Shown: positions 22,481-55,834 of the stretch, piece after piece
How positions within the stretch are numbered: the first letter of the stretch is position 1
Layout: each line of letters begins with the position of its first letter
Assembly: GCA_944472135.2 (NCBI GenBank)
Contig: OX235262.1
Coordinates: 68,758,887-68,822,886, forward strand
Direction of reading: 5' to 3'
DNA: 64,000 bases
Source: Trichobilharzia regenti
Taxonomy: Eukaryota; Platyhelminthes; Trematoda; Strigeidida; Schistosomatidae
Position numbers and translations under genes: made by a program
The notes under the pieces: generated by a model
The model's input: the letters and a program-made list of their open reading frames with translations, nothing else
The model's database searches: none
What the model was told of the DNA's origin: nothing

Positions 22481-22486
22481 ATATTC

Positions 22487-23430
22487 TCATTTTTTACATG
22501 AGGGACGCCAGTTTATAGGCATCATCAATGTGATAATTTACATATACGATTAGCAATCATACTTGATAATAATGTTTTGATAAAATACATATTTTTTCCT
22601 ACCTGTGTAGGACACACCAAATGTACAGGCATGGATAAACATTATTTAAATTTCATAAATTTGGTTTATGGTTAAGTTACATTGTTGCTAACGTTTTTGT
22701 CTTTGGCTTGTGGGAACAATACGCTAACTAGTCATTCAATGGAGCACATCAAAATATATGGAAATATTGCTTTCGCATTAACAAAAAAAGCCAAGTATGT
22801 TATGGATGGATTACATATACTTGGGAAAAAATAAAGCTGGAAGTAATTCCCCAATACAACTTTGGTGTGTACGGCATGGAGGATTATTCTTGATTTATAT
22901 CAGAATTTGGTAATAATTTAAAATAAGTGATACGCCTGTATGGTTTTGTCAGCATTTTCATCGTAACACCACAAGTGAATTGTACCCAATGCAGACTAAT
23001 AGTAATGATAATTTATATTTTCATATAAACGAGTATTTTCAAGAAATGAAAGCTATTTTCACAGATACGATCAGTTATGTTGTAAGTTACAATCGTGAAG
23101 TATTATAAATCTATACTTTTTAATGGTATAAAGGTATATTCCACAACTGTAATCCAGGTTGCGTCGTGGGGAAAGTTAATTCGTTATTAACCAGGCAACT
23201 GAAAGATATGGGACCAATAATGTTTGCAGATCATTTGTCATTGTAAATGGTCAAACATCCACATTATTCATTCTCACTCAAAAAGTCAAATGGAAGCTAA
23301 AATGATGAGGGAAAAAAGAAGACAAACAACAGCAACGCAAAAGAAAGCAAGAGGAGTCCTTAAGGAGTAATTAATAAATATATACATATATATATTCTGT
23401 TTAGTAACTATGGTTATTTTCGTGCACTAA
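22487..23430 (-). repeat. Retroposon complex R (direct repeat, copy 1)
   Basis: A block repeated in direct orientation at 24292-25319. It begins with (AAT)n and TTCTCATTTTTTACATGAGG, has a second hairpin TCCTA (22597-22601)/TAGGA (22608-22612), then a body with CATTCAATGGAGCACATCA and TACTTGGGAAAAAATAAAGC, a third tail module (about 23005-23100), and ends with AGGAGTCCTTAAGGAGTAAT and GTTTAGTAACTATGGTTATT. In element sense (minus) each module ends in a hairpin plus ATT repeats. It is non-coding. Confidence 0.75.
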
Positions 23431-23437
23431 CTAACTA

Positions 23438-24285
23438 ATAATAATTTTATATTTTCATATAAACATAAATGTACATGAAAATGCATGCCATTTTTACAGG
23501 CACGATCAAGTATGGTATAATGTCAAATCATAGATTGTCTACAAGTTAATAATATTTCAACAGTTAAATATTTTATATATATATATATAATTACACTCAT
23601 TGTCTGGACCAGGCCGTATAGTTATTGAATTGTACAGTTGTCCTCCAGGTTGAGCGGGAAAACTGGCTTCGTTTCGTTTTCATCCCGTGGTTGTAGGCAT
23701 ACGATAACCAACGAATATTGAGGTAAGTACAACGTTTACAAGGGATTGTAATAATAATAATAATTTATTTTCATATAAACATAAATTTACATGAAAATGC
23801 ATGCCATTTTTACAGGCACGATCAAGGATGATATAATGTCAAATCTTAAATTGTCTACAAGTTAATAATGTTTCAACAGTTTAATATTTGATATATATAT
23901 ATATATAATTACAGCTGTTTTAGAAAAGTAAAAGTGCTAAGGTGAATCAATAAAGTGTAATGAAATAAGTAAGTGCAATATATCATTAATGAATACATTT
24001 ATATAGGAGACAGAATGGGGAAGCAATTAATTCTTAGGCCGACAACGTTCATTTGCGATGTATAATGCTACCCATATAGGTCTTACTATCATGATGTCCA
24101 CTTTTGGCTTTAACACAATTATTTTCAAGCCAGTTGTTTTTATATTCTATGCCTTTTTGTGCATTTGGTGCATAACCGTACCCTACAGAGAATAGGAATA
24201 GAATAAGTCGAATCAAATTCATAAAGAGCTATAAAATGTTAGGTTTAATGGAATATAATGAGGATCAAGTAAAGACATTTTTTAA
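23438..24285 (-). repeat. Partial third copy of the inverted-duplication arm
   Basis: It matches 27720-28575 in the same orientation and 19155-20030 in the opposite one. It is bounded on both sides by AAT microsatellite. It starts AATAATAATTTTATATTTTC and ends GTAAAGACATTTTTT, where the arm copies continue GTAAAGACATTATTAG. It differs from the arms at scattered positions (for example CATAACCG where the arms have CACAACCG), so it is older than, or independent of, the near-identical pair. Confidence 0.8.
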
Positions 24286-24291
24286 TAATAA

Positions 24292-25319
24292 TAATAATAA
24301 TAGTATATTCTCATTTTGTACATGAGAGACGCCAGTTTACAGGCATCATCAATATGATAAATTACATATACGATTAGCAATCATAATTAATAATAATGTT
24401 TTAATAAAGTACACATTTTTTCCTACCTGTGTAGGACACACCAAATATACAGGCATGGATAAGCATTAATTAAATTTCATAAATTCGGTTTATGGTCAAG
24501 TTACATGGTTGCTGGCGTTTTTGTTTTAATAATAATTATAATAATGTATATTCTCATATAAACATATAAATTTACATGAAAATGCATACCATTTTTTAGG
24601 TCTGTGGGAACAATATGATAACCAGTCATTCAATGGAGCACATCATGAAATATAGGAATATTGACTTCGCATTAACAAAAAAACCCAAGTAAGTTTTGGA
24701 TGGATTAAAAATACTTGGGAAAAAATAAAGCTTGAAGTTATTCCACAATATAACAAGTCATTCAATGGAGCACATCATGAAATATAGGAATATTGTCTTC
24801 GCATTAACAAAAAAACCCAAGTAAGTTTTGGATGGATTAAAAATACTTGGGAAAAAATAAAGCTTGAAGTAATTCCTCAATATAACCTGGGTGTGTACAA
24901 ATCCGAATCTCATTTTTGATTTGATTTATATCCAAATTGGGTAATAAGGAAGCTATTTTTACAGATACGATCAGTTATGTTATAAGTTTTCCATTGGTAT
25001 AAGAGTATATTCCACAAATGTAATCCACAAATGTAATCCAGGTTGCGTCGTGGAGAAAGTTAATTCGTTATTAACCAGGCAACTGAAAGATACGGGACCA
25101 ATAATGTTTGCAGACCATTTGTCATTGTAAATGGTCAAATATCCACATTATTCATTCTCATTCAAAAAGTCAAATGGAAGCTGAAATGGTGAGAGAAAAA
25201 AGAAGACAAACAACAGCAACGCAAAAGAAAGCAAGAGGAGTCCTTAAGGAGTGATTAATAAATATATACATATATATTCTGTTTAGTAACTGTGGTTATT
25301 TTGGTACACAAACTAACTA
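24292..25319 (-). repeat. Retroposon complex R (direct repeat, copy 2)
   Basis: It repeats 22487-23430 with about 80 extra bases from an internal insertion of an (AAT)n tail fragment (about 24528-24600) and a tandem duplication of 132 bp (unit starts near 24624 and 24756, each with GTCATTCAATGGAGCACATC). A 16-nt stretch (CCACAAATGTAATCC) is also doubled near 25012-25042. Its right end CTAACTA touches the 3' end of the CR1-like LINE at 25320. Confidence 0.75.
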
Positions 25320-27054
25320 GTCCCGTTATGCTAACTTTTATATTATGTGTGAACTAATATTACTGTCCTGTGTAGAAATGTTAATCATCTAGTTCCAATA
25401 ATATTAAAGTTTATAATTGTAGTTTGCTGTAACTACACGTTTAAACAACTTAGAATATCTATGTAGGGTGAAAAAGAGGGTGTAAGAGTCAGACGTAGAA
25501 GTGCATTGTCATCTTTGAGCAGTCTGGTGACTGAGGAGATGAACACTGGAAGTGTGTTTGCATCGCGCACATTAGCTGGTAGTCTATTCCAAATGACTGA
25601 AAACTTATTTAAGAAGAAGTTGTACCGCACGTAAGTCTGACAGTGCTCTATAGCAGCTAGGTTGTGATGATTTCTAAGATTGTAACTGACGACAGCGGTA
25701 GGTTTAGTTATTGGCTCGGAGGAATGCAAGAGAAGATTAGTTAGCTTATAGTAAAAGATTAGGTTTAGCTTAAGGCGTCTTTTCCAGAGGGGTTCTAATC
25801 TTAGTCTTACGCATCTCTCATGGTATTCCAGACTACTTTCTAAACCAAGAGTTCTTGAGGTAAACTGCCGTTGCACTCCCTCTAATTTAAGCTTGTCATT
25901 TTGTCTTAGTCCGCTAAGAATAAACGTGCAGTATTCTAAGATAGGTCGGACACATACTTTGTATAATAAAACCCTAGTTTCACAACAAAAGAAATTGCGT
26001 GTTATGCATCCTATCAGCCTACGCGTTTTACGTCTGGCATAATCAGTCTGTTCAGCGAACGTTAGGTTACTAGAGTATCTAATACCGAGATCTACGACTG
26101 AATTGAGCTTAGCTAGTTTTCGCCCATTTATTTCAAGGTTTAGATCAAGCTTACTGTTGCCGATACAAATCCAGCCGCATTTGTCAATGTTAAAATTTAG
26201 GCAGGATTCAGCACACCACGTTGCAAGGCTACTTAGTTCAAGATGTATTTTAGTAACCATATCGCTTAATTCATGAGTGTAGCAGGAGTAGACGACTTTG
26301 AGGTCGTCAGCATATAGGAATGGTTTACCTGAGGTGAAGCACTTGCAAATGCTGTTAATGTAAACTGTGAATAAAAGTGGACCTAGGACACTACCTTGCA
26401 CGACCCCACTTGAGATCTGCCTAGGGTGAGACAATACAGATCCAACTTTGGTTATTTGTACCCTGTTGCTTAGAAATGATTTTAACCAGTTCAGTAATGG
26501 GTTGCGAATTCCACAAGAGTACAGCTTCTCAAAGAGAATACTGTGAGATACCATGTCAAATGCCCTAGATATATCGAAGTATAGAACAACGACTAGCTTA
26601 CGTGCTTCGCGATTACTAGTGATGCAGTTGAAAAAGTCGAAGTGGCAAGTAACGCAGGATCTATTTTTGAGAAATCCATGTTGAGACCTTGTAACAAGAT
26701 CCTCCCTAATTAGGTAGTCTGACAATTGATCCTTTACAACTTTCTCCATGATTCGTGAGATAACTGGGGTTATATTTATGGGTCTGTAATTGCGGACGTT
26801 TGCCCTATCACCAGATTTGTAATGTGGAATTATGAAGCTAGTTTTCCACTCACTAGGGTAAGTGCCAGTGTCCATAGATATTGAGAAGAATTTAAGAAGT
26901 AACAGGGGTATATCACACCCACTGTTTTTGAAAATTATCGAAGCTAGGCCATCCGGTCCCGTACTAGTGGAAGGTTTAAGGCTTTTAATTGCTTGTACTA
27001 TTAACTGATTAGTGAACACAATGCTTCCAAGGGACGAGATAGTAAGGGGAGCGT
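25320..27054 (-). pseudogene. CR1-like LINE, 5'-truncated, RT ORF open
   Basis: The ORF at 25433-27019 (528 codons, minus) is an almost intact reverse transcriptase C-terminal two thirds. In order: STGPDGLASIIF (RT block 1), YRPINITPVISRIMEKVV, SQHGFLKNRSC, VVLYFDISRAFDMVSH (block A, first Asp), SGVVQGSVLGPLLFTVYIN (block B), FLYADDLKVV (catalytic YADD), LNFNIDKC, and the C-terminal region with LEYC. The QHGF, ISRAFD and VVQGSVLGP motifs place it in the CR1 clade. There is no endonuclease: the copy is cut at about 27054. The 3' UTR ends at 25320 in GCATAACGGGA, and the same end occurs at 38640. It cannot move by itself without the 5' part. Confidence 0.85.
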
Positions 27055-28907
27055 AAGGAGGGTAATGGCTGGTTTAGGTACATCTTCTACGGCAACCAAC
27101 ATATTGCGATAGGCGTAAACTGAGTCAATCTTGGTAAATACTTTAGCATCTCGAAGACTATTGGTGCCTCCAGGTATCTGTCTGGGATGGTTTTCTTATT
27201 TGGGACTGTCAATGGAGTTGAAGATTGAACGATCAATTCATGGTTGTTTGCTCAAACCAACTTCCTCAATTTTCGCGGAGGCATCAATACGACAGTCATC
27301 GTCTCTTCGGTCGCTGTTCAGAAAGAAGAGTGAAACATCGTCAGAAAATGTCAATCACGTCTCATAAACCGTTAATGCCCAGCTCTCGCTACGCTCGGGC
27401 CCACGCTGTTCTTCGAAGATTTCAGAAACGCTTAGTTATAACGGACGATAAAACCAAAACACCGATCTGCCGTTTGATATTTCTTTATTGTTACACCAAC
27501 ATATAAAAAGAATAAGCGAACTAAGGTCTGAAAACAAATATTACAATAATAAATCTTTGTATTACTTCTGACGATGTTTCACTCTTCTTTCTGAACAGCG
27601 ACCGAAGAGACGATGACTGTCGTATTGATGCCTCCGCGAAAATTGGGGAATTTGGTTTGAGCAAACAACCAAGAATTGATCGTTCAATCTTCAACTCCAT
27701 TGAAAGGGACTGTGTAATAATAATAATTATAATAATGTATATTCTCATATAAACATATAAACTTACATGAAAATGCATGCCATTTTTACAGGCACGATCA
27801 AGTATGGTATAATGTCAAATCATAGATTGTCTACAAGTTAATAATGTTTCAACAGTTAAATATTTTTATATATATATATATAATTACACTCATTGTCTGG
27901 ACCAGGCCGTATAGTTATTGAATTGTACAGTTGTCCTCCAGGTTGAGCGGGAAAACTGGCTTCGTTTCGTTTTCATCCCGTGGTTGTAGGCATACGATAA
28001 CCAACGAATATTGAGGTAAGTACAACGTTTACAAGGGATTGTAATAATAATAATAATAATTTATTTTCATATAAACATAAATTTACATGAAAATGCATGC
28101 CATTTTTACAGGCACGATCAAGGATGATATAATGTCAAATCTTAAATTGTCTACAAGTTAATAATGTTTCAACAGTTTAATATTTGATATATATATATAT
28201 ATAATTACAGCTGTTTTAGAAAAGTAAAAGTGCTAAGGTGAATCAATAAAGTGTAATGAAATAAGTAAGTGCAATATATCATTAATGAATACATTTATAT
28301 AGGAGACAGAATGGGGAAGCAATTAATTCTTAGGCCGACAACGTTCATTTGCGATGTATAATGCTACCCATATAGGTCTTACTATCATGATGTCCACTTT
28401 TGGCTTTAACACAATTATTTTCAAGCCAGTTGTTTTTATATTCTATGCCTTTTTGTGCATTTGGTGCACAACCGTACCCTACAGAGAATAGGAATAGAAT
28501 AAGTCGAATCAAATTCATAAAGAGCTATAAAATGTTAGGTTTAATGGAATATAATGAGGATCAAGTAAAGACATTATTAGAAAATAAATGAGATAAGACA
28601 TTGTGAAGTGGTATTTAAAGATCCGACGATGGATAGCAAGTTAATTTATAAGATGCCCCATAAATCTGTGCAGATCCCACATGGTCGCATCTCAACAATA
28701 GGCCGAGTGAATGGTATATATTTAAAGGCAGAAGCATGACCTGTCTAGGCGTTCATTATTATCTTTTTCAAGATAAAGATCTAAGCCCTCATAAAAATCA
28801 GAAATGTCTCGAGCCTTCAAATTGCATATTGCTGTTCCTGCAGAATGGGGTGATTCACCTTAGTGACCCCCACCATATCTACTGATCAGCTAGCGCCACC
28901 CTCCCTC
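27055..28907 (-). repeat. Right arm of 1.85-kb inverted duplication
   Basis: Inverted copy of 18832-20687. It ends at CCACCCTCCCTC (28907), which is exactly where the insertion begins in the left arm, and on the inner side at AAGGAGGG (27055), which is exactly where the CR1-like LINE starts. It contains the Gypsy RT fragment of the left arm, the LTR pair and the two retroposon copies. Target-site duplications cannot be seen at the outer ends (left flank GGTTACAG, right flank GTTTTATG), so a simple terminal-inverted-repeat transposon is not supported. Confidence 0.9.
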
Positions 28908-29640
28908 GTTTTATGATGTTAGGCTCTGAGACTATGATTATTATGGCTACCGCAAATATATTGCTTGGTACTAGACATGTTCGTACCCCATATTCCATCT
29001 CCCTAGCCTTCTTAATGTGTGCTTCCAATAGGTCTCTATGTACATCTTTATGAACATATTATATATGTATGCATGCGTCCTAATGAGCAGATTACTTTAT
29101 AAGAAGTTAAAACCTTAAAGAGTAAAAAGAATAGGTTTTATGAATAGTGGAGCAGGATTCAGCAGAACACTATAGCTGGTTCAATATAGGTAGTATGAAT
29201 TGAAGGTAAGGTCGGTTGGCAGGACTTAGTGTACTTATACATAGTAAACATTTGACATTGCAAAGTAATCCGTCGACACATATTATAAAAAGGTATTGAT
29301 ACTGAACCAACAAAATTTTAGCATTTGGTTAACAATACTGCAGAAGGGTTTTTAGTCTTAAGGGTAGCCGTAAAGTAAATTAGACCATGCATGAGAAGAG
29401 TATAATCAATATTATATTTCGTATTAGCAAAGAATACATTAGACTCAATAACTGAGTGTTATAAGGGAAACAAGCGTGGTAAATCAAGAGAACACTTCTT
29501 GCATAAACATTTTAATCATTTTAAGTATTTTAATAGCAATCTAATTTAAGAATTGAACATGCATGAATAATAAGCATTATTATATTAGTATACACATGTG
29601 TAAAACGTTAAAAGGTGTGGATGCTATTACAATTATTTCC
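28908..29640. other. Gene-free stretch
   Basis: AT-rich DNA with no recognised domain or repeat structure. It separates the inverted duplication from the next LINE. Confidence 0.45.
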
Positions 29641-29715
29641 AGTGTTACTTTTGCCAACACAACTTAGTGAAAATTATAGAGAATAGAAATCAGTAAATTA
29701 GTTAACGTTCGCTGC

Positions 29716-30523
29716 GTGAGTATTAGAGTCGAGATATACGTATGTGACTATACTGAAGACTGGACTGGCCTTCAATTTCCGTTCTACCAACAGTTGTGGT
29801 CTTTTAGACGAGCTAGGGTGGACATGTTAAAGTGTCTTTCTAGGCTCCGTTTGAACCCATCAGGGTTTTCACAACATCTTATTTCAGGTGGTAGTTGGTT
29901 CCAAAGAGTGCAATATTTTATGGTGAAAAAGTTTGCCCTAATGGATTTTCTGTGGGTAGCCACCTTGACAAGGTAGTCGTGGTTTCGCAGCTGATATGAT
30001 TTAATATTTTCCCAAAATATGGATGAGTTACTGTAGCAGTGTTTCCTAATGACTTTGAAGAGTAGAAATAGGTTGCACTTCACTCTCCTTAACCACAGAG
30101 GCTCTAATTTCAGACGTACACACCTGTCAACATATTCCACTTGTTGGTCGAACCCTATTATGCGTTTCGTGAGGAATCTCTGGACACTTTCGATTTTTTT
30201 CTGTCTACAGTCCTGAGGTTACTAAATAGGAGAGCACAATATTCAAGTTTGGGACGGATACATGTCCTATATATAGCTAATCTTGCTTCTTGGGTGTAGA
30301 AGTTACGCAGTACAAAGCCAGTAAGTCGTTTACAGTCAGATACAACCTTATTTGCATGATCGGAAAAGGATAAATCTGAGTATGTTATCCCGAGATCTGT
30401 GACTGTGTTCAGTTTTGAGAGGAGCTTACCGTACATATAAGGCACATTATCGGTTTCCAGCGTCCAAGGTGGGTTATACCGCACTTGTCTGGGTTGAAAG
30501 TCAGTTGCCACTTTTCGCTCCAA
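29716..30523 (-). pseudogene. CR1-like LINE B, RT C-terminal end (frameshifted)
   Basis: Minus-strand frames at 30158-30523 and 29784-30140 continue the reverse transcriptase of the 30409-32823 ORF after frameshifts. The text includes VVSDCKRLTGFVLRNFY, RPKLEYCALLFSNLR, CVRLKLEPLWLRRVKCNL, YQLRNHDYLVKVATHRKS and TLWNQLPPEI. The same blocks occur in the CR1-like copy at 25433 (RPILEYC, RLRLEPLWKRRLKLNL, YNLRNHHN, IWNRLPANV), so both are one clade but different subfamilies. The stop is at 29784 and the 3' UTR extends to roughly 29640-29716. Confidence 0.8.
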
Positions 30524-32823
30524 TCGCCTAGATCATTTAAGTCTTGTTGGATCTTGCTTTCGACGCTCATATCACCGTACCCATAATCATATACTATCTT
30601 GAGATCATCTGCAAAAAGGTATGGCTTGCCATACTTGATTACAGAGACTATGTCATTTATAAATAAGAGGAATAGAATAGGGCCAAGAACACTACCTTGT
30701 ATTACACCACTGGTTATCGGCTTTGAGGAAGACAACTGGTGGTTGATTTTGACTAATTGCTCTCTTTCTGTGAGAAAAGAACTTATCCATTTGTGAAGAT
30801 TTCCGGTTATTCCGTAGGATTGGAGTTTTGTTAGGAGTCTGATATGTGGGACTTTATCGAAGGCCTTGCTAACGTCAAGAAACAATGTTGTTACCGAACG
30901 CCCATTATCAATGCTTTGTGTGATGTAGTCAAAATAATCTAAGTGGCAAGTAATGCACGACCTTCTACTTAAGAAACCGTATTGGGATGGGGATAGTAGG
31001 TCATTTGACAGCAAGTACTGAATGATTTGAGTCTTAACTATCTTTTCCATTACACGTGAAACTACAGACGTGATGTTGATGGGGCGGTAGTTGTTGATAT
31101 CAGCTATAGGCCCGTATTTATGGATAGGTACAATATAAGACTTCTTCCAGCAGTTAGGGTATGTCCCATCGCTTAATGAAATTGAGTATAACTTGAGTAA
31201 GAGTAAACTCATGTCATTACCACCTTTTTTCAGCAGAACGGAAGATATACCGTCTGGGCCAGTAGTGTTACTAAGCTTAAGATTTGCGACAGCTTTATCG
31301 ATCTCATGTGTGGTGAAAATTATGTCACTTAAACATTCGTCTGTTTTACGTGGGAAATCCACGACTTCATCGTTCTCTAAGGTGTATAATCTGGCGAAGT
31401 GCTTGCTAAACAGTTCACATATCGCCTCATTATTTTCGTAAGCAATGCCGTCTAAGTATATTATTTTCGGATAGGGTGTTTTGGAGTTCATCAACCTACT
31501 TTTAAAAAGTTTGGCTATTTCTCCTGAGTTATGCGGTGCATGAATGGCCTGCATTTCTTTGTTTCTGAGGCCTATATTTCTCAACTCTTCAATTCTACTG
31601 AGAAGGGACGTTATGGCAATTAATGACGATAAGTCATGATATCTGTAGTATTTTATTGAGTGCTTACGTAGACTTCTTCTAAACGATGTCGGAATATAAT
31701 CACTTTGGGGGAATCTGAAGTTAAGAATCTTCTCGGGTGCAATGACGTCGTGAATTGAGTTAATATTCTGATAGAAGTTGTTAAGAATTGCATCTAAGGA
31801 CTGGTTCGAAAAGTACGAGTCCCAATTAGAACATCTAATTAGGTGCTGATACAAGTCCCAGTCAGCATGTGTGTACAATCTCATAGGTATCTGGCCAGCT
31901 TCATCTCTGCGTTTTGTTTCAGGAAAGATGTCAAAAGAACAAACTACTATTCTATGGTCACTACCTGGAAATTCATGTCCAACATGTACGGTAGATGGCG
32001 TTATGTTGTTCGTGAAAATAAGGTCTAGGATATTTGCGGATCTAGTGGGTGAATTTATGTGTTGTGTCCACCCTCCTGTGACGATGGAATTTATGAGATT
32101 ATCGTACCTTTGGGGTCCTCGGAGTGAAGACCATGATACTTCTGGCAAGTTGAAATCGCCTCCGATAATTTTATAACTGAAAGGAAGATTGGCTGTAACA
32201 TTAAAGATATTGCTAAGCATATTATCATATTCCCTGCTGGATGAAGGGGGCCGGTACACACAACCCACAAGTATAGGTTTACTTCTGACAACTTTTATTT
32301 CGACCCAGATCGAGTCATTGAGTTGTGACAGAATTGGGTTACTAAACTGGGTTGCACACATGGATTGTTCACAGTAAATTAGTGTTCCACCCCCACGACC
32401 TGTCCGTCTGTCCCGAAAAAGGTTGTATTTATCAATCCTTAGGCTGTCATTGGAGATTTCACTTGTGCACCAGGCTTCGGTGATCATAATCAATGACGGT
32501 CTGCATATAGAAGCTATTGTACTTAGTGCTAAATGTTTGCTTAGAACTGATCTCGTATTTACTAGGATAATAGATAAACACTGGCTATGTGGTTTCAGTG
32601 AGCGGACAACATCTTGGTAAAATAATCCGTGAGTATCCTCTATATACATGTTATCAGACTCATTTACCAATATCTTTGGATCGTAGGAAGACTTCAGGTA
32701 GATTTTTGAGGTGGTAGTCAGGGATGGGCTTACGTTTGGATATGGTATGCAGTGAGAGACACCTGTGTGATAATCAGATATTAATATTTTAGAGATATTA
32801 GTATCCGCGTTTGGTGTCGACAC
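30409..32823 (-). CDS. CR1-like LINE B, ORF2 endonuclease-RT
   Basis: An 804-codon open frame. The N-terminal part is an APE-type endonuclease: SIILVNTRSVLSKH, IMITEAW (catalytic Glu), GGGTLIY, VGCVYRPP, IIGGDFNLPEVSW (catalytic Asp and Asn) and FPGSDHRIV (the SDH catalytic pair). The middle linker is followed by RT: TTGPDGISSVLL, NYRPINITSVVSRVMEKIV, SQYGFLSRRSC, TTLFLDVSKAFDKVPH, SGVIQGSVLGPILFLLFIND and YLFADDLKIV (FADD in place of YADD). It nicks target DNA and reverse-transcribes its RNA there. The frame is intact to about residue 790, where a frameshift moves into the C-terminal frame at 30523. It is likely dead but fairly young. Confidence 0.88.
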   Translation of the reverse strand: MSTPNADTNISKILISDYHTGVSHCIPYPNVSPSLTTTSKIYLKSSYDPKILVNESDNMYIEDTHGLFYQDVVRSLKPHSQCLSIILVNTRSVLSKHLALSTIASICRPSLIMITEAWCTSEISNDSLRIDKYNLFRDRRTGRGGGTLIYCEQSMCATQFSNPILSQLNDSIWVEIKVVRSKPILVGCVYRPPSSSREYDNMLSNIFNVTANLPFSYKIIGGDFNLPEVSWSSLRGPQRYDNLINSIVTGGWTQHINSPTRSANILDLIFTNNITPSTVHVGHEFPGSDHRIVVCSFDIFPETKRRDEAGQIPMRLYTHADWDLYQHLIRCSNWDSYFSNQSLDAILNNFYQNINSIHDVIAPEKILNFRFPQSDYIPTSFRRSLRKHSIKYYRYHDLSSLIAITSLLSRIEELRNIGLRNKEMQAIHAPHNSGEIAKLFKSRLMNSKTPYPKIIYLDGIAYENNEAICELFSKHFARLYTLENDEVVDFPRKTDECLSDIIFTTHEIDKAVANLKLSNTTGPDGISSVLLKKGGNDMSLLLLKLYSISLSDGTYPNCWKKSYIVPIHKYGPIADINNYRPINITSVVSRVMEKIVKTQIIQYLLSNDLLSPSQYGFLSRRSCITCHLDYFDYITQSIDNGRSVTTLFLDVSKAFDKVPHIRLLTKLQSYGITGNLHKWISSFLTEREQLVKINHQLSSSKPITSGVIQGSVLGPILFLLFINDIVSVIKYGKPYLFADDLKIVYDYGYGDMSVESKIQQDLNDLGDWSEKWQLTFNPDKCGITHLGRWKPIMCLICTVSSSQN

Positions 32824-32831
32824 TGTGTCAG

Positions 32832-34380
32832 CTATCTCCCGGGAAATATGCCTTGCCCTAGCTGTAGACTGTTCGCTATGCCAGCAAGGAATTGATCCGA
32901 TATCATGCGTGCTATATGCATGATTCCAGGTGTTTCTGTTAACTGACGCTGGTGAAAATCCTGCCCTAAGGTATAACCGATATGTGTATTCGGTAATTTG
33001 TTGCCAGTATAAGAATGAAGTGTTGGTATCTGTTTCTGGTATTCATCAGACCATGGCAAGTTTTGTGCAGAAATCGGCACATGCTCCCCACTAGACACAT
33101 AAGATATATGAATGGCTTGCTAAATGTGGTCTGTGGCCGATGTTTGGGGTATTTTCTATAACTTTCAGTAGACAGAATATTAGAAGTGGGCTGGTTGACA
33201 AGGGGTTTACGTAGTGGATGTGCAGAACAATACCTACTACCTTGCTGTGCTGTTTGTCTAGAATTAGGGATTCGATAAAATTGGCTTTCCACTTGGCACC
33301 AATTAGGCCTACCCCTAGGAGCTTCGTCTACCATATTTGACTTTCTCTTACAAAGAAGGCCTACAGGTGCTTTCGTCTCTTTCTTATCAAAGAGCTTTCT
33401 TGCTCCGGGTTTAGTATTTAATTTATTTACTTCTTTTTCCCTATCTTATGATCAACTGGCTGATGATGGCTAACAGGGCAGTCAGCACATGCTATGTAGG
33501 GTTTCTGTGGCTTGAACACCTCATGAGCTTTAGTTTTCTTAATGGAAATGGGACGTTTGTCATAACGCCTAGAAAACTTGCCAACTTGGGTGGCTACATT
33601 CGACTGGTGCTTCACAGAGTGTGGATTGTCAGACTGAGGAGTAACTGACTTATAAGGCAATGGTTGGACCACCAGTGGGATGGGTTTTGATGGTTTCGGT
33701 GTCTTGACTTTTGCGTCAGTGTGAAAACGATGTATTTCAACATTATTTCCCGTTGACTCATCTATGTCCACCATTTCAGTGTCTGCATCAATATCGTTAT
33801 ATAATGCTTGGCTAACATTAGCCACTACCTGCGAAAATGTCTGTTGCATGCCGTGATCAGATATTTCAATAGACGGAATAACGCACGGAACATCATCTAC
33901 AGTTATCCTATTAGAGTTATCAGGGTTCACTGTTCCTGAGCGGCATCGCCTTTGGCATGGTGTTAAATCAGGTGCAACCCTAATGTTAGTGTATGGTGTT
34001 GAAGAGCCTATTTTCTTACCCGATTTCAGAAAATTCCTGGCTTCTTCGGTAGACCTAAACTTGAAAAGCACAGGACACGGGTGGTTTGCAGATTTCTTAC
34101 GAAGACGCAAAACCTGACATTCTGTCAACGACATATTACAAGCCTTTAGACACGAATTCTTAAGTTTGGCAATCGGCTCTCTGTCTGGAATGTTATAGGC
34201 CAAGACGTTATGTGAAGACATAATCCTCTTAACAGCTTCTTCAGCCAAATAGTCAATTATGCGCTCGGATTTGATTAGTGATTCAAAACAGATGTTTTGT
34301 GATGGGTCACACAGTTGCGTGAGAGGCATAATGCTGTCAAACTTGCTCTGTAGTTCTGCTACAGAATCTTTAAGGCGGCC
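32832..34380 (-). pseudogene. CR1-like LINE B, ORF1 (nucleic-acid-binding protein)
   Basis: The frame at 33427-34329 (300 codons) has NVLAYNIPDREPIAKLKNSC, CQVLRLRKK and PVLFKFRSTEEARNFLKSG, the layout of the RRM-like domain of LINE ORF1 proteins. A basic Pro/Ser-rich tail follows, ending with CADCPVSHHQPVDH, a short Cys/His cluster. Two smaller frames (32966-33334 and 32832-33098) continue towards ORF2 after frameshifts. Upstream, an in-frame stop and the boundary of the inserted L2-like element (about 34390) cut off the N-terminus, which is found again at 38055-38276. Confidence 0.7.
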
Positions 34381-34399
34381 TGTTTGACATCTGGGCTAC

Positions 34400-38638: not shown

Positions 38639-38639
38639 G

Positions 38640-44760: not shown

Positions 44761-45625
44761 GAATAACATGTTTTAAGTAAACGTCGTATGAAAGCTGAGA
44801 AAATAGTCGCTCATAGTCTGCTGATAAAATACCGATTTTTCATCGAATTTACTTTTTAAAGTGCATGAGGGATGTCGAAATTCGCAGTAAATTGCAATTT
44901 ATGATAATAAACACTAGACAGCTCATATAAACGATACATATTCTTGTAAATGATGAAGTGTGTTGAATATCAGGTAATTCAGTTTTAATGATACTCAGTT
45001 AATAATAATTTATTCACATAAATTAAATATTCGCATGACTGACATACCGTTTATACAGGCATGATCATATTTGAAAAGTGCAATCTGAAATGAAAAGTGT
45101 TCTATGACATTAAAAATTGAATAATGGAAAAATATCTTGAAACTTTATAAGAAGTTTTCGATGTTTACTTTTAACTGAATAAGTTACAAAATATTAGTTC
45201 AAGTCTAAAGTTTATTCTATAATATACTTATAGTCAGTCAACTCCATGCGGGAATTACGAAACGTTGCGATAACAGAAAGTTAGAAGAGAGGTGACACAC
45301 AGGTGCTAGGGTAAGACACATGGGATGCAGAGCTTACAATCATTATCATTTGATCAATTGATAAGGGTTCGAAAATTTATAAAACTCCACAGTAGAGAGT
45401 AAGTACAGCATTATTTTAGTATTAGCAAATACAACAGATAAACAGACTTCAGAATGAAACTTGTTCCATTGTTCATCGTGTGTACTGTCAATATTTTGAA
45501 TAAATTTCAAGTAATACAAACGTAGAAAGCAGCATTACTATATATTTGCAGTGCTCCAGTGCAATAATTCCAAAATGAGAAGAAAGAAGAAAAGAGAAAG
45601 AGAGTAGCAGAGGCAGCCAACAAAT
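44760..45625. other. Gene-free stretch with one retroposon tail
   Basis: No coding region. At 45000-45070 is a diverged tail module: AATAATAATTTATTCACAT, then ACATACCGTTTATACAGGCATGATCA. Its hairpin is not well kept. The rest is AT-rich. Confidence 0.45.
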
Positions 45626-45629
45626 AATA

Positions 45630-45990
45630 GTTACGTTAGTGAAGTTGAAGGCTGGACGATCAATTCATGGTTGTTTGCCCGAACCAAACTTTATATTTTG
45701 ACCGGAGTCATCGATCCAGCAGTCATCGTCTCACCGTTCGCTGTTCGTTGGAGGACAGAGAAAAACTATCAGAAGTATTATTGTCATTTGTTGTTATGAC
45801 ATTTATTCTTAGACTTTGTGTACAATAACTTAGTGGTTTGCTCTGTCTTGGTGTAAGAATAAATGGTTCTAAAGTCACCAATTTGTGTTCTGGTTTTTTT
45901 CTTTGGTTATAACGCATAGTTTCTGAAAGTCTTCCAAGGACAGTGTGAAGTCCAGCTTAGTTAGCCCTGGATATTCACAGTTTCTGATGA
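45630..45990 (+). repeat. 5' LTR of a non-autonomous LTR element
   Basis: It aligns with the LTR at 49255-49626: GAAGTTGAAGGCTGGACGAT, TTCATGGTTGTTTGCCCGAA, CAGTCATCGTCTCACCGTTC, ATCAGAAGTATTATTGTCAT, a polyadenylation-type block GTGTAAGAATAAATGG, GTGTTCTGGTTTTTTTC and CATAGTTTCTGA. The two LTRs differ at many positions, so they are either old or from different subfamilies. The exact ends and a primer-binding site are not certain. Confidence 0.65.
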
Positions 45991-48032: not shown

Positions 48033-48490
48033 AGCGTCAACCTGAGAGGGGTTGTAGGCGTACTGCTGTAAGTCCTACAATTCTTCAAAGGGTAGCGCAT
48101 TAATAAGCAGCCCAATGTGCTCGGTGTGTGATTTTGTACATATGTTCATATTGTATATACTGAATTGATATTATCTGTCATCTAGCTGTTGGTAATTCTG
48201 TTTGTGTCCGGACGACTTCCCCTTGGATCATCAACCTGAGAAGGAATGTAGGCGTACTGCTGTAAGTCCTACAGTTCTTCAAGGGTAGTTTGCCGTGCCA
48301 GAATACACAACATTTGATGTGTTGATTGTACGTATGTTTGTGTTAAATAATTGTGTTGGTTCCAATTATTGTAATTGTTGGTTAATCTTGTTTGTGTCCG
48401 GACATTCCACAACTTACAATCGTCAACCTGAGAAGGGTTGCAGGCGTACTGGTGTAAGTCCTGCGATTCTTCAAAGGAATTACATCGAGA
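48020..48490 (+). repeat. Three 193-bp repeats, each with a hairpin
   Basis: Three copies in tandem (hairpins at 48052-48080, 48246-48274 and 48438-48466; spacing 194 and 192). Each has CAACCTGAGA before the stem, a 7-nt stem, a 15-nt loop CGTACTGCTGTAAGT (one change in copy 3) and TTCTTCAA after. The stems are TTGTAGG/CCTACAA, ATGTAGG/CCTACAG and TTGCAGG/CCTGCGA. Copy 3 changes a T-A pair to C-G on both sides and has one G-T wobble. Copies 2 and 3 are each preceded by GTTTGTGTCCGGAC. They lie between the ORF and the 3' LTR. Confidence 0.8.
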
Positions 48491-48599
48491 CATGATCTGC
48501 GAGTTTGTGTGTACTGTTTGTATATATGTGTGGTGTGTCATATCAATTGGTGTTTTTTGGATTCATTGTGTTTACTTGTTGTTTTCGTATCTTGTTGTT

Positions 48600-48900
48600 A
48601 TTGCGTAATTTTTTTAAATTGTCCGTCGTGCTTACTTTGATTTTGATTTGATTTTTGATTTACAGCTTGATTCCACACTGTATTTTCGGTACAAGTATGG
48701 AATTTTCAGCATTCTGAAGTTGTTTCGGGTCTTCTATATCCATGAATGAATTGATTGATGTTAAAGATATCAGATGGGTCGTATACGCCGGGGAGGCTAT
48801 TGCTGAGAATGAAATGCATACGGAGATAATTGTTAGCTGCGGTCCCACACGCCGGGGAGCCAGAGTGTAGACGACTGAGGCTTGCATGCGTCACCGTTAC
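48600..48900 (-). pseudogene. L2-like LINE 3' end fragment
   Basis: On the minus strand the end reads TGCTGAAAATTCCATACTTG, ACAGTGTGGAATCAAGCTGT and then an A-rich tail (AATCAAAAATCAAATC). The same 3' end is found at 59846-59930 (plus) and in the L2-like LINE near 37978-38020. A small frame (48706-48894) contains GTAANNYLRMHFILSN and may be the last part of its RT protein. Confidence 0.55.
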
Positions 48901-49254
48901 TTGAATTGAGGCAGAATGAGTGACAAGCGATCGCAGTGATAATTGGTAGTGAGTAGATAAGTGGATGTGCGTAGAGTATCATGAGGTGCTGCTATGGTCA
49001 CGTTGCATTCTGCAGGAGTCATTCTAGCAAGTGGAGATTGTGTCGCAAGATTTCAAGAGGATGCCTTTAACTGGAGGCGCAGGTCGTCATTGATGTGTGA
49101 GATTGTGCTGTGGGTATGCTTGTGGTGTGTTGGCTTTTCTGTTTGTTTTCCATTTCAGCTCTGTCCGTGTGACCCAGGTTCTCGCAATGGCATCCAAGTC
49201 AACGTGTATTGGTTGTGATGGGAAAAAGGGTTGGATCCCCATTTTGCCGGGGAG

Positions 49255-49626
49255 TGTCAATGTAGTTGAAGATTGAACGATCAATTCATGGTTGCTTGCC
49301 CGAACCCAACTTCCCCAATTTTCGCGGAGGCATCAATACGACAGTCATCGTCTCATCGGTCGCTGTTCAGAAAGAAGTCAGGAGAAAACCGTCAGAAGTA
49401 ATATTGTGATTTATTGTTGTAATATTTGTTCGTAGACCTTAGTTTTAAAGCTTAATTTTTCAGTTGGCTATATGTTGGTGTTACAATAAAGAATTCTCGA
49501 GTGGTCAATCGGTGTTTTGGTTTTTGCGTCCGTTATTACTAAGCGTTTCTGAGAAATTTCAAGGAACAGCGTGAGTCCCAGCGTAGCAAGAGCTGGGCAT
49601 TGACGGTTTACGAGACGTGGCTGACA
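49255..49626 (+). repeat. 3' LTR of the non-autonomous element
   Basis: It starts TGTCAATG and ends GGCTGACA, a proper TG...CA pair, length 372. Internal signals are ACAATAAAG (polyadenylation) and a G/T-rich stretch after it. A purine-rich stretch GGGAAAAAGGG lies upstream (49220-49231) and CCGGGGAG directly precedes the LTR; either can be the polypurine tract. It matches the solo LTR at 20038-20393 better than the LTR at 45630. Confidence 0.75.
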
Positions 49627-51044
49627 ATGACCTTATCTAGTTTACGCATCCACGATCAAATTTCTTTCCTGTTATAAAACTACGATAAGACTGCTGAAAA
49701 ATTGAATAAATACATCTCTGATCTCAACATAATACATCAATAAACCTCAAGCCAATGGTGCTGCTCACAACAAAGTTAAATAGGAGAATTGACTTCAAGC
49801 TTTATTTTTCCCAGATACCTGTATTACATTCAAGTGATGTCTGGGTTTTTTGTTAATGCGAAGACAATATTTCTATATCTCTTTATGTGCTACACAAACA
49901 GACTTTATAGCAGACTGTTCCGACTGACTCTAATGTCAGAAAGAACAACCAAACTGTAAGTCCATTATACATCAAATTATGTGTAATTTATATAATAACT
50001 TATCCATGCCTGTACAATAGGTATGTTCCTGCATAAACAGGAAGAAATATATATTATTATTAATATAATCCTAAGCACCATTATTGTTTAAATTTGTCGA
50101 AAATGCGCGTAAAAACAGAGTGTTGCGTTACATTTGGTCGATATAGTGGACCACTCACAAAAGTGTAAAAATGGCTTATAAAACGATAGTTTACCGTAAA
50201 CGATGTTTTAAGTAACATAATCTGCAAGAGGCTCACCACAGCAGTTAGAATATAGTTGAACATGCAGAGAAGTACTATTGATTCAGCTACCGGCGAATTT
50301 TTTATTCTTTTCGATCTGGAACCAGAATGACCGCAAACCAATCCATACAAAATGTCGAAAAAAGCATGCAGGAGCAGAATATTACCATCAAATGAATCGG
50401 TGTGATCTGAGATACAGCCGTGAGCATAATAATAATAATATATATTCTCATTTTTTACATGAGGGACGCCAGTTTACAGGCATCATCAATTCGATAATTT
50501 ACACATAATATTAATAAGCATATTTAGTAAAGATAATATAATAAAGTACATTTTTTCCCTAGCTATGTAGGGTACACCAATTGTATAGGCATGCATAAAT
50601 ATTGTTTTAATAATAATAATATATTCCTTCCTGTTTATGCAGGAACATACCTATTGTACAGGCATGGATAAGTTATTATATAAATTACACATAATTTGAT
50701 GTATAATGGACTTACAGTTTGGTTGTTCTTTCTGACATTAGAGTCAGTCGGAACAGTCTGCTATAAAGTCTGTTTGTGTAGCACATAAAGAGATATAGAA
50801 ATATTGTCTTCGCATTAACAAAAAACCCAGACATCACATGAATGTAATACAGACATATGGGAAAAATAAAGCTTGAAGTCAATTCTCTTATATTACTTTG
50901 TTGTGAACAGCACCCTTGGCTTAAAGATTATTGATGTATTATGTTGAGATCAGTGATATATTTATTCCATTTTTCAGCAGTCTTATCGTAGTTTCATAAC
51001 AGGAAAGAAATTTGATCGTGGAGGCGAAAATTAGATAAGGTCAT
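49627..51044. repeat. 1.4-kb palindromic element, arms ~440 bp
   Basis: The left arm (49627-50068) starts ATGACCTTATCTA and ends in ATT repeats. The right arm (50606-51044) is its inverted copy, starting with AAT repeats and ending TAGATAAGGTCAT. Each arm has the module GTTCCTGCATAAACAGGAA next to CCTGTACAATAGGTATG. The loop (50069-50605) has a non-repetitive part (50235-50425) and two more hairpin tail modules (50447-50463 and 50557-50572). It begins at the base right after the 3' LTR. Non-coding. Confidence 0.85.
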
Positions 51045-51284
51045 GTTAAGTTGTTTTACTGCATCAAATGGTCCCGAGGTCGATTCCAGAATTCCCCATT
51101 TGCGCCATTTGTGTCTGCATGGCGGACTGTACTCGTAAGTTGAGTAAAATGTTGAAAACCAGTTGCTTCTTTATTTCAGATCATGAATACTCATTTACAT
51201 CGTGTCCGCCAGCTTCTTTAAATGGTAGAATTGGATCGTTCCTGGAATTTGAGTGATTATGGGATAAATGGTTTGGAATTAATC
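51045..51284. other. Gene-free stretch
   Basis: It has one 62-codon open frame (51068-51256) with several Cys but no domain I recognise. I do not call a gene here. Confidence 0.35.
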
Positions 51285-51477
51285 ATAGCAGTTAGAATAC
51301 AGTTAAACATGCAGAGAAGTACTTTTGATTCAGCAACCGGTGAATTTTTTATTCTTTTCGATCTAGTACCAGAATAACTGCGAACCATTCCATTCAATAT
51401 GTCGAATAAGGCACGCAGGAGGAGATCATTACCATGGAATGAGTCAACTTGATCTGAGATGCAGCTTTCAGCATGTT
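51285..51477 (+). repeat. Direct repeat of the palindrome loop
   Basis: It matches 50235-50425 over about 190 bp, for example CAGCAACCGGTGAATTTTTT against CAGCTACCGGCGAATTTTTT, ATTCTTTTCGATCT in both, and AACATGCAGAGAAGTACT in both. The loop sequence therefore exists outside the palindrome too, so the palindrome either arose within this sequence or carried a copy of it. Confidence 0.75.
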
Positions 51478-51949
51478 TTCGTTATATCATAGATATCCAG
51501 GTTTATTGGCGCTGTAGAGGCAGTGATTTGGATTATGACGTATTCTACAAAGTCTCCGTGCCCATTTGAAGTATACATGCGCTTTGAAAGGATTACTTTG
51601 TTGGCTCCTACCCCCACTGAGTGTTAACAACAGCTGCTGTGGGTTTATGTATTTCCTCGCCTTTTTGGATAAAACATCGCCGCATTCTTTTTGGGTAGGA
51701 AACCAGTTGGTGGATTATATATGATATCCAAGTAACTTTTATCTTTTCATGCGGTGTTGCGGTAAGTTTCTACCTTGTTTTCTCATATTTCATTCGTATG
51801 TTGATTATGGTTCGCCCTTTGTATCAGGTAGACATAGTTTGATCGACTCTTGGTTGAATGGGTAATAATATTATTATTATCAGTTGTTGAATCAGTCTTT
51901 GTTCTTATTTTTCTCACGACTAATACTGAAGACGTAAACATTGACGTAA

Positions 51950-52430
51950 ATTACTGTCGATCAATTTGGTTCTGGGATAGACGAAGTCATCAGAGTGGTT
52001 AACTAGGTGGTGTATATATCCGAAATCGTATGATCGGTTATATTCTGCCCACTCATTCGTTTAAATGGTAGTGCCTGGCAAGATGAGTCTCTGAGTAATT
52101 GGGAGAAAAGTGTCAGCACTCCTATCTGGGATAAGTTCAGTAAATCCTTTCCGAATTTAGGTGTCTTAAATTCCCGATACCCAAACGTCATTTGTTCTAG
52201 CATGTCTCCGACTGTATTCCTTCTTTATATGGACCTTTTCGTCGATATGAACGACAACACCGACTCCTCCCAAAACATGTGTAGTACTGTTTATTTTCCA
52301 TGACGCTAAATTTCGAAAAAACTGGAACAGTTGCACAGTTGACGTCAGTGTATCATTTGTTCGATCGGCAGTTAATCTTATACCGAACTTCAAAATCCAG
52401 TAATGGCACAGAAACAGAATATTCGTCAAG
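51950..52430 (-). pseudogene. Merlin transposase remnant
   Basis: Minus strand. The frame at 52166-52429 reads LFQFFRNLASWKI, then LGGVGVVVHIDEKVHIKKEY and NDVWVSG, matching the GG.G..VEIDES..KRKY.RG...WVFG start of the ISXO2/IS1016-type DDE domain of Merlin transposases; the first catalytic Asp is kept. In another frame with stops it continues RKGFTELIPDRSADTFLP, QRLILPGTTI, TNEWAEYNRS and FGYIHHLVNHSDDFV. The same blocks appear in order at 59284-59520 (plus). The second catalytic Asp reads N. The C-terminal part is missing. Confidence 0.8.
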
Positions 52431-52439
52431 GAAAGTTTC

Positions 52440-54590
52440 GATTTTTAAAGAAAGTTCCTAAAAGACAATTAACCGAGATTGCCAGTTACCAGTAGGAACA
52501 CTTAAGCGTTTCCTACACTCTGTACATCTAAATATATATCCGTCAATGACCTGGGAATACGGTCGCAGGTTCATTGAAGCATCACGGCTACATATACGGG
52601 AACGTTTAATCAGTCTATTGTTGCTGAAATGGCAACCATCCAGGTGACTCCGCGTTATCCAGACGTAATTATGGATGCTCTACACCTTTTGCTTTGCATA
52701 TTCGCTCCAGATCTTGTTCTGGATTACTGTAAATGAAGGTCACTTACGCACATTGTGGTTGATAGATTTTCTTTTGCGTAAACGTTGCGGCTAATGCGTG
52801 ATCTGTGTGAAATTTGCATCTAAGCAGATAAGCACCATTCGTTTTCTCACTAGAATTATGGTAAGTCTCCTCAACGAACGACTAGCATGCGTTCAGGGGC
52901 ATTTGAGCGTTCGCACTCCTGGGACGCTATTGTTGAACTTCGTCCTTCTTTGATTAAGCTACCCAGCAATATTCTTCATGGTAATGGATCCAATGCTTAT
53001 CACATCTGTGAAATTTCTACACATGTTATCTTGTTCCCTTAGGCTAAAAAATATAACGTCTATCCGATTTTATAATTTCAATGCCCGCATCAGTAACGTT
53101 AAACACGTATTAGCCGCAACGGTTACGCAAAAGAAAATCTACCAATCACAATGTGCGTAATTGACCTTCAGGTGCTCAGCCTCTCCGTAAGCTATTTGTG
53201 TCGCTATCGCTATCCCTTGTCCGCGAATACGGGTACATACCCGATCCTTAGCAGGGCAACTCTAAAGAATAGTAGCCCAAACCGAAACGACCTTTGAACG
53301 CACAAGTGACCTTGAGCAAGGAATCAGGTGACTCTGTTATTTCCAGAGGTAATTATGGATGCTCCACACCTCTGTGCGTTTTGTGAGGATATAGGCTACA
53401 ACCAGGTGTTTCCGCGCAGTGCATGGGTTACCACGCTCATAGCTACAGGCGTTATAATCGCCTATTTTTCTGAAAATAGGTTATATTTGACGAGTTTTAG
53501 ACTTCTGTAGCCAGAAGGCAGTATTTTAACGTATTTTCTTCGTAGTAAAGCGCAAAATTGTATGTTATAGCTCGGACGAATTACTGATAAAAAAGTCATC
53601 CTTTTTAAAAAAGATTCCCATGGAAAAACTATTATTTGCATCTTAGTGCGTTGAGGGTTTGTTTTTTGTTAGTTGTTTCAGGTCTTTAGGTTGTAAACAG
53701 ACTACAGGCAGTGGCTGTTGTCATTCCAGTTAATCTATGAGAATTGGGCATATGAAAGAGAAATAGCCTGCAGACATAGGTTAGATGTGTGTTTTGAGGA
53801 TGTTAAACACTTCTGTTATCATCGGTGATGACTGAGATATTCCATAACACATCGACGACATCATAGCTCACGCACTCTGACTTTTGTGTTTAACTCCTTT
53901 TAAACCTCGTAAGTAGGTGAAATTATCACCTGTCTTTCACTTTAAACTAATTGTTCGCAGAAAAGACTGTAAAATATCGGGAAAATAATATTTCCTGAAG
54001 AAAAACAATAAAAAACGATGAACCCCATGCCTGTTATATATTTTGAATTATTAACACCTTTTAAATACTTCTGCACCTGTCTGCTGGTTTTCTTGTGTCT
54101 TCTTCTCTTTTCAAACATACTGCTTTCAACGAAGGTACAGTGCTGCAGTTCTCTACTTATTCGTGATATTGCTAGCTCATCTGGTGAATAACGGGATCAT
54201 CGGTATATAAAATCTGCTGACAAGTTCAAAGTGGGTCTCATAAACAACTGGAAATGTCACAAATATGATGTACTTACAGGTAAATTTAAAGTTTAATAGA
54301 CTTTAAAACTCTTTCTGAATAATTTACTGATAATTATTGTTTATTCTGCATCTCTTATGTAATACGTCAGCACCTGTACAGAAATGCCACTTACCTTCCT
54401 CAACTAACGCAATCATTTATGATTCCCGCGTGAAATTGACATGTATTTTTTTCAATCACAGTTTAGATTTGACGCTATATCTAGTTCCTTATTTGTACAT
54501 TTCATTTTAAATGTTTCTCTCACATTTACCAGTATTCAACTTATTTCTAAATTAACAAATCATATATATTCTATAAGTTTTCATAAGTGT
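52440..54590. other. Gene-free stretch with an old repeat
   Basis: No convincing coding frame. The segment 52870-52950 (CATGCGTTCAGGGGCATTTG, then GAGCGTTCGCACTCCTGGGA) is a diverged copy of 60455-60530. Around 53290-53330 the text recalls part of it in inverted form. Nothing else was recognised. Confidence 0.4.
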
Positions 54591-54594
54591 ACAT

Positions 54595-54660
54595 ATGTTC
54601 ATGCCTGTAAAAATGACTGGTTTCTGTTACAGAAATAAAATTATTATTATTATTATCATG
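54595..54660 (+). repeat. Retroposon 3' tail with hairpin
   Basis: It reads GTTCATGCCTGTAAAAATG, then TTTCTG (54621-54626), TTA, CAGAAA (54630-54635), then TAAAATTATTATTATTATTA. The stem is a perfect 6 bp with a 3-nt loop. Same order as the other modules in the window, with a different stem sequence. Confidence 0.7.
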
Positions 54661-55830: not shown

Positions 55831-55834
55831 GACT

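Follow-up and report, generated by a model that had tools for sequence, protein, structure and literature searches.

A two-hairpin module at the 3' ends of related LINEs in Trichobilharzia regenti, probably a reverse-transcriptase recognition signal

Introduction

Long interspersed nuclear elements (LINEs) make up a large share of schistosome genomes. Several described LINEs carry a conserved hairpin near the 3' end. In a study of ZfL2-1 and ZfL2-2, deletion of the 3' stem-loop abolishes retrotransposition, and the authors conclude that the loop is the recognised part and that a foreign stem is tolerated; ZfL2-1 with the stem of another element and its own loop retains about half the wild-type rate (PMC4176376). 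Amniote CR1 elements have a conserved 3' hairpin and microsatellite motif (PMC4316615), and a review by Ohshima reports compensatory stem changes in the 3' hairpin of plant L1-clade LINEs (PMC3747384). Here we describe a module of this kind, two adjacent predicted hairpins followed by an (ATT)n tail, in a stretch of 64,000 nucleotides (nt) from the fluke Trichobilharzia regenti (C1:68758887-68822886 of the 954-Mb genome), hereafter the window. We hold with good confidence that the module is likely to be the 3'-terminal recognition signal of related CR1/L2-like LINEs encoding an endonuclease and a reverse transcriptase (RT), recognition itself being inferred.

Results

Abundance of the module

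The module is marked by a conserved box, TGCCTGTA. In the window the box is followed by an ATT-type tail within 90 nt 13 times as an exact match and 16 times with one mismatch, against means of 0.03 (maximum 1) and 0.55 (maximum 4) for some 60 shuffled boxes; altogether, 18 sites bear the box. Genome-wide, the pattern TGCCTGTA-N28-58-(ATT)3 has 5,393 + 11,264 = 16,657 matches, overlapping matches in long ATT tails included, versus 23 + 16 = 39 for the reversed pattern, and a narrower pattern has 806 + 1,016 matches versus 0 for its control. Family typing used a listing of 100 rows obtained with the genome pattern, from which 19 rows differing only in the number of ATT units and three without letters were dropped. 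This left 78 places, all within the first 3.15 Mb of C1 and among the matches listed; 77 belong to known types (B 24, D 22, C 17, A 8, F 4 and D' 2) and one is unrelated. Several are local duplicates, and the places are therefore not independent. E-type copies are matched by the narrower pattern, with none among these 78 places. B follows C within 140 nt at 14 of 17 places, and A within 220 nt at three of eight.

A covariance model trained on five A/C-type sequences gave 22 hits in the 64 kb, the best 16 of which are 16 of the 18 box-bearing sites, the two missed being G copies. Five of the 16 are training-type sequences by construction; among the 11 others, E is below 0.01 only for F (1e-4) and one B (0.002), the remaining nine lie at 0.095-0.28, and the first non-module hit follows at 0.3. 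At Rfam gathering scores nothing was found at the modules in the window. Two module patterns had 0 matches each in viral contigs, and no outside copy of the tail was found. Literature searches, in those parts of the sources that they covered (PMC8392823 included), found no report on this tail in flukes, which is not proof of absence.

Two adjacent hairpins

The box had been seen in a preliminary description as a barely varying motif, and so it is; that description overlooked that it is the 5' arm of a hairpin. Arm and loop together make up the box, and a predicted first hairpin pairs CATGCC with GGYRTG around the loop TGTAMAAT. A second hairpin with a variable stem follows directly, and then (ATT)n. 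The 5' arm of the first hairpin reads CATGCC, or GATGCC in B and CGTGCC in D, the 3' arm GGTATG, GGTGTG, GGCATG or GGCGTC, and the loop has nine nt, eight in B. All six pairs form in A, B, C, D and F, against four in E, of which the window copy has a further change (GACTGG). Over 12 representatives, 91.7% of 72 cells are paired, compared with 21-48% when the partner is slid by one to three columns.

The six second-hairpin stems named in the preliminary description were all confirmed at the positions given there. Its wider layout, GATC before the box and (ATT)n after the hairpin, applies in part. GATC is present only in D, F and one of the two G copies, A/C having TATCCA or TATGCA, E GTTCA and B TGATGA. 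The C modules with boxes at 22631, 24455 and 50591 (all on the minus strand) are not directly followed by (ATT)n; they occupy an internal position, and a B module comes 109-110 nt after them.

MAFFT gave no alignment of the second hairpin across all types, and we therefore counted pairs on the homologous A/C set and calculated energies per type. With one representative per type, the summed energy is -49.6 kcal/mol, the best of 2,000 dinucleotide-shuffled sums being -27.3. In the five homologous A/C sequences, three of five pairs change on both sides and none on one side, and all cells pair. For both hairpins together, with the structure drawn from the same five sequences that were then tested, 0 of 500 shuffles reach the observed percentage paired or covariation score, and 11 of 500 reach the number of double-changed pairs. 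Seven close comparisons of modules, which share sequences and are not independent, contain 22 differences at 121 unpaired positions; among 78 pairs there are three double changes that keep pairing, one single change that keeps pairing and one broken pair. Compensatory change of the stem, as the preliminary description had proposed, is thus supported: pairing is mostly kept where the types differ, but double changes that are independent at the level of families are few, because part of the compensatory change traces to a single homologous set (A, C of C-B and C of A-C-B). A stem first taken for a family of its own (TCTTA/TAAGA, in the sampled locus L028) was demoted, the genome having one exact match to its 35-place pattern. 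The proposal of a hairpin that acts as RNA ahead of the tail is likewise supported; the module is real and widespread, and it very probably functions as RNA.

How similarity is distributed around the box bears on whether the stems might pair simply for lack of elapsed time, all modules descending from one LINE 3' end with neutral drift. When seven type representatives are aligned ungapped at the box, their mean identity is 0.96 within the box itself, 0.62 from -6 to -1 and 0.61 over the seven nt that follow the box; it is 0.30-0.34 from -80 to -6 and 0.33-0.39 beyond those seven nt. Gapped alignment recovers more upstream similarity among D, G and a relic module of the LINE family CB (described below), which share 119-131 nt at 72-75%, and likewise between the families H and CB; the 3' untranslated regions (UTRs) of A, C and H/CB are homologous at 72-74% over ~312 nt. 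Such homology speaks for plain descent. Yet the ungapped similarity between types is confined to the module although the second open reading frames (ORF2s) of E, D and H/CB are 37-48% identical, changes in close pairs avoid the stems or come paired, and the superseded CB relic is down to two of six first-hairpin pairs, as drift would produce. We consider drift very improbable as the explanation of the pairing stems, and conservation of the module as a recognition signal the better account.

Hairpins near a 3' end would also fit a part in transcript 3'-end formation or RNA stability, and nothing here separates such a part from recognition by RT. The site directly before a microsatellite-like tail, on LINEs with related RTs, nevertheless matches the experimentally supported stringent LINEs, which leaves transcript-end formation or stability with a small share of our belief and favours RT recognition.

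LINEs that end in the module

The preliminary description saw the tail on none of the window's ORF-bearing LINEs and called its partner enzyme unknown. Neither statement stands. LINE CB (24283..27073, minus strand) has an ORF2 fragment (27073-25433, 546 aa, RVT_1) whose 3' UTR leads into an internal module C (24419..24457, box 24455) and a terminal module B (24307..24347, box 24345) with (ATT)n, both of them two-hairpin modules found by the covariance model on the same strand. LINE D (27711..34374, minus strand) has the 877-aa ORF2 RT30 (33042-30409) and ends in a module D with box 27794 (27718..27796, minus strand; E 0.26), made of the first hairpin, a long second hairpin and an ATT tail.

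Both arrangements recur outside the window in loci sampled from the genome (numbered from L001), which were obtained through A, E and C-B queries and are biased to those families. CB is contiguous from the ORF to C-B in L014, L023, L032, L037, L044, L045, L047, L053, L057 and L058. LINE D is contiguous with its module in L009 (34374-28209, then 28044-27711), and a 165-nt truncated D copy that lies inside the 3' UTR of the window's LINE D (28209-28045, minus strand), with an extra module D (28047..28116, minus strand; E 0.16), is absent there.

Twenty regions of ~8 kb, taken at tails of the A and E types and at one C-like tail, have RT-bearing ORFs upstream of many of the tails. In the E family, two overlapping blocks of homology join L024 to L027, covering ~7.5 kb as far as the tail; L020 shares this homology, but ~240 nt of other sequence interrupts it shortly before the tail. 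All three have an ORF1 of 511 aa and an ORF2 of 1075 aa, and L024 and L027, in which both ORFs are long and open, end in the module. The ORF2 of L027 contains RVT_1 and endonuclease domains above Pfam cut-offs; the endonuclease is also above the cut-off in RT30 and below it in L013, a LINE of family X that has two ORFs (562 and 1007 aa) and ends in A-C-B. The module thus stands at the 3' terminus of autonomous endonuclease- and RT-encoding LINEs (L024, L027, L013, RT25 and RT30), with a conserved predicted stem-loop near the end and short tandem repeats behind it. In the window, the E family is represented by a 5'-truncated copy (53862..54657, plus strand) that is 93% identical to L027 and has module E (box 54602) and (ATT)n at its end. 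A box scan found no module close behind two further window elements, LINE RT34 (34461-37273, plus strand) and an RTE-like ORF (42192-43133, minus strand).

In a protein tree of 35 rows, the five module LINEs (E, H, X, CB and D) fall in a nine-row group (84/85) inside an 18-row group (82/87). The nine rows also include the LINE of L018, a pair of Schistosoma proteins and an unnamed relative; the two window LINEs that lack the module lie outside that group on long branches. Among the relatives of the E ORF2 that bear a fluke name, the nearest (39-40%) belong to Schistosoma haematobium, S. spindalis, S. intercalatum and Dicrocoelium dendriticum; a further match, at 38%, is filed under Streptococcus dysgalactiae, a label that looks wrong. 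Matches among solved structures are all non-LTR RTs, by name mostly R2 and LINE-1. We infer a CR1/L2-like clade from the domains, the Schistosoma relatives and the layout, the tree holding no named CR1/L2 references; the likeness to CR1/L2-type LINE tails proposed in the preliminary description is supported.

Copy ends and the SINE alternative

The bodies in front of the tail, which the preliminary description took for unrelated, are the 3' UTRs of these related LINEs. It had also included short interspersed nuclear elements (SINEs), the idea being that SINEs and LINEs with unrelated bodies share the tail and that non-autonomous families borrow one LINE enzyme. LINE/SINE pairs are common in the CR1 and RTE clades (PMC3747384), and many truncated copies here are only 165-450 nt long. 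The 134 module hits in the sampled loci represent 122 distinct 460-nt stretches, and for 130 of the hits the best alignment is with the 3' end of a LINE from a set of five references. Eight of these 130 have a LINE match of less than 60 nt upstream of the box, a point in favour of the SINE reading; 122 of the 134, by contrast, match a LINE 3' UTR over at least 60 nt upstream of the box. The four unassigned hits are two false positives and two corresponding to the window's F copy and the G copy at 55899.

Copy starts, too, are scattered as in truncation: truncated E copies share the same (ATT)n end, with BLAST starts dispersed over reference positions 5935 to 7062 and different flanks after the tail (a later start in L020 and one at 5360 in L024 reflect breaks in the alignment). 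In L025 the G type reaches further upstream, and ARAGORN found no tRNA-like sequence in the window, diverged heads being outside its scope. Among the 134 module hits we saw no short family that ends in the tail and has a 5' head of its own; rare SINEs may have escaped this sample, because its loci came through the A, E and C-B queries. The SINE reading was set aside for want of a fixed 5' end or a foreign head in this biased sample, and we judge it very unlikely, the sharing of the module being better explained by related LINEs.

Further sites are module F (44997..45063, minus strand; lower end of the tail set by eye), with F-type copies elsewhere on C1, and two old 3' ends with G-type modules, at 55769..55965 (plus strand, box 55899) and 18411..18606 (minus strand, box 18476).

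Tandem tails and exchange of 3' ends

Some LINE families end in two or three modules in tandem. The ends of L001, L002, L006, L007 and L015 have A only, those of L003-L005 and L008-L013 have A-C-B, and L014 has A-C and is then interrupted; an automatic count over the sampled loci and the window, which required only that a C box follow A, found 8 ends with A alone and 11 composite ones, L004 and L009 being one place. Family H is defined by L001, L002, L006 and L007, which are 92-95% identical to L010 between the end of ORF2 and the tail. Family X (L005, L008, L012, L013 and L014) carries the H 3' UTR at ~92% from position 7255 of L013, with no such match upstream; its ORF2 is 44% identical to that of H and is sister to that of CB (54%; 99/96). 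Next to this, 650 nt or so of the X 3' UTR (L013:6597-7255) match, at 84%, a stretch before an X-type ORF1 start (L017:5358-6004), and the 5' and 3' UTRs of X are therefore partly alike.

The window has an X 3' end with the composite tail (50426..51863, minus strand; 99% to L013): an internal module A with its own (ATT)n (50627..50666, TTCCTG/CAGGAA), a module C of the A-C-B type (50555..50593, CCCTA/TAGGG) and a terminal module B followed by (ATT)n (50444..50484, CTCAT/ATGAG; E 0.095), all on the minus strand, A and C being found by box scan and covariance model. A 5'-truncated H/X-type 3' UTR copy with an A-only tail (49627..50069, plus strand, box 50007) is 95.7% identical to X (L013) and 92.9% to H (L007).

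LINE CB adds a further layer, namely a D/G-type module inside its 3' UTR, before an H-like stretch and C. In the window this relic, TATCTGTG (23003..23073, minus strand, box ~23066), is seen in a second, 5'-truncated CB copy (22471..23437, minus strand), followed by a module C (22595..22633, box 22631; a covariance model hit) and a module B (22483..22523, box 22521; E 0.28) with (ATT)n, both also on the minus strand. The relic box is TATCTGTA in 28 of 29 copies, some of which are mutual duplicates. Its second half is kept in six copies (the window's, L026, L038, L039, L048 and L052) and deleted in 23. We read the relic as the ancestral, superseded end of CB because of the stretch that it shares with D or G. 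From the relic to C, CB is 71-74% identical to the H 3' UTR up to A. The order relic, H-like end with C, then B looks like the remnant expected from repeated addition of foreign 3' ends. Four other CB 3' ends (L033-L036, G000:C3:62973596-62981034) lie at an exact spacing of 2,386 nt, from which it follows that a tandem array may have absorbed a LINE copy.

Template jumping, read-through or nested insertion could each have produced the tandem tails. That they come from ordinary nested insertion or from gene conversion at the DNA level, not from template jumping or read-through, has in our estimate close to an even chance. Nested insertion does occur, since D pieces lie within the CB and D LINEs: the 165-nt unit mentioned above, and a 5'-truncated D-type module in the window's longer CB copy (24524..24596, minus strand) that is skipped in alignments to other CB copies. 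A further point for such an origin is L010, a mosaic of H and X with an H ORF2 and the A-C-B tail: of 23 diagnostic sites, the first 12 are of H type and the later ones a mixture. Mixtures also occur in L002, L003, L006 and the window copy at 49627, and some of these sites may therefore be shared polymorphism. Against this stands that A-C-B and C-B are the mobile 3' end of many copies, and the amplified forms at least have therefore gone through RNA; nested insertion and conversion concern the origin of the tandem forms only. Whatever that origin, the pattern looks like serial accretion and exchange of 3' ends, with one LINE (X) carrying the 3' end of another (H).

The six D sites of the window are three copies of one duplicated locus. 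Besides the two in LINE D, two lie in an inverted duplicate (19625..19699 and 19946..20031, plus strand) and two in a third copy (23751..23820 and 23436..23504, minus strand), these four being found by box scan and covariance model. The inverted duplication relates 18832-20687 to 27055-28907 (1.85 kb, 99.8% identical), and the third, partial copy spans 23438-24291 at 98%.

Other features of the window

The sole Rfam hit in the window is a Type I hammerhead ribozyme above the gathering score (4893-4938, plus strand), with related stretches at 675-766, 3367-3449 and 62342-62410. A repeat with 141-nt inverted ends (97%) within ~500 nt, present in several copies (20036-20540, 49250-49626 and 45640-45987), is possibly a fold-back element or one resembling miniature inverted-repeat transposable elements. 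A host-gene ORF at 14499-16160 (minus strand) shares 93% identity with a protein of Trichobilharzia szidati and 46% with a Heterobilharzia americana protein. Degenerate telomere-like CCCTAA repeats lie at 60173-60240, internal to the chromosome, and an imperfect palindrome of ~540 nt (74% self-complementary) at 61381-61922.

Discussion

By analogy with stringent-type LINEs, the ORF2 protein of each LINE would bind the RNA of the module at the end of its own transcript, and target-primed reverse transcription would start in the ATT tail. The truncated 3' end of another LINE might then be added after an old end, or replace it, and so become the new 3' end; the terminal module would do the work, and superseded internal modules would be free to decay. 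Our guess is that the first, more conserved hairpin is the one that the enzyme reads.

Several points weigh against the module as a recognition signal, and against parts of the evidence for it. Its role in binding and retrotransposition is proposed by analogy, and no clear target-site duplications were seen at the truncated E copies. The first hairpin keeps five of six pairs in the C of A-C-B and four of six in E; only one of its pairs is double-changed, which 149 of 500 shuffles reach, and we therefore regard it as conserved, not covarying. For the second hairpin, single-type energies range from 0 of 2,000 shuffles (D) to p 0.14 in the L028 type, and there are only two double changes at family level (T-A to C-G and A-U to G-C), a third being that of L028, a single genomic copy. 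In the A/C set, where the tested structure derives from the tested sequences themselves, further pair types number 4 against a shuffle mean of 4.6, reached by 500 of 500. The ranking by the A/C model supports relatedness of the modules, and its scores support B, D and E weakly. With so few rows in the tree, two of them LINEs that lack the module, the clustering of the module LINEs does not reach significance (49 of 500 shuffles are as low), the CR1/L2-like label leans on domains, Schistosoma relatives and layout, and the chimeric ends could stem from ordinary recombination.

The exchange of ends invites a broader and more tentative proposal, which we would put somewhat short of an even chance: the module would be a portable cassette for RT recognition, and the 3' ends of LINEs in this species would evolve by repeated capture of the terminal cassette of another LINE. 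The relic followed by C-B, A followed by C-B, and X with the end of H would be cases of such capture. If this were so, control of mobilisation could pass between the enzymes of LINE lineages, and ORFs and tails would have different histories. The module would also add to LINE tails of the stringent type a case from trematodes, in which autonomous partners and thousands of copies occur in the same genome, and tail recognition and its change are therefore testable by comparison; tandem tails, moreover, allow one to ask which module an enzyme uses and what becomes of the rest.

Set beside known systems, the fluke module is closest to the tails of the stringent L2-clade elements UnaL2, ZfL2-1 and ZfL2-2, in which a stem-loop near the 3' end likewise precedes short repeats and the stem sequence can vary while its structure matters (PMC4176376). 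Unlike these, it has two adjacent hairpins, the upstream one being the more conserved, its tail unit is ATT, it sometimes comes as two or three modules in tandem, and it is known from sequence alone. Amniote CR1 resembles the fluke LINEs in its conserved 3'-UTR hairpin and microsatellite and in strong 5' truncation (PMC4316615), a likeness of description, and its tail repeat is an octamer instead of ATT. Plant L1-clade LINEs have compensatory stem changes and a conserved loop and flank, as does the module, but belong to another clade, and one hairpin is described for them in the relevant part of the review (PMC3747384). For the tandem tails, the nearest parallel is offered by chimeric insertions of R2 and LINE-1, attributed to template jumping or RNA ligation, in which two RNAs are likewise joined end to end (PMC3414825; PMC13174262); in the fluke, by contrast, it is 3' ends from related LINE families that are joined, and the composite has itself been amplified as a 3' end. 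The module is a known kind of signal, and its tandem, exchangeable tails are the less ordinary part.

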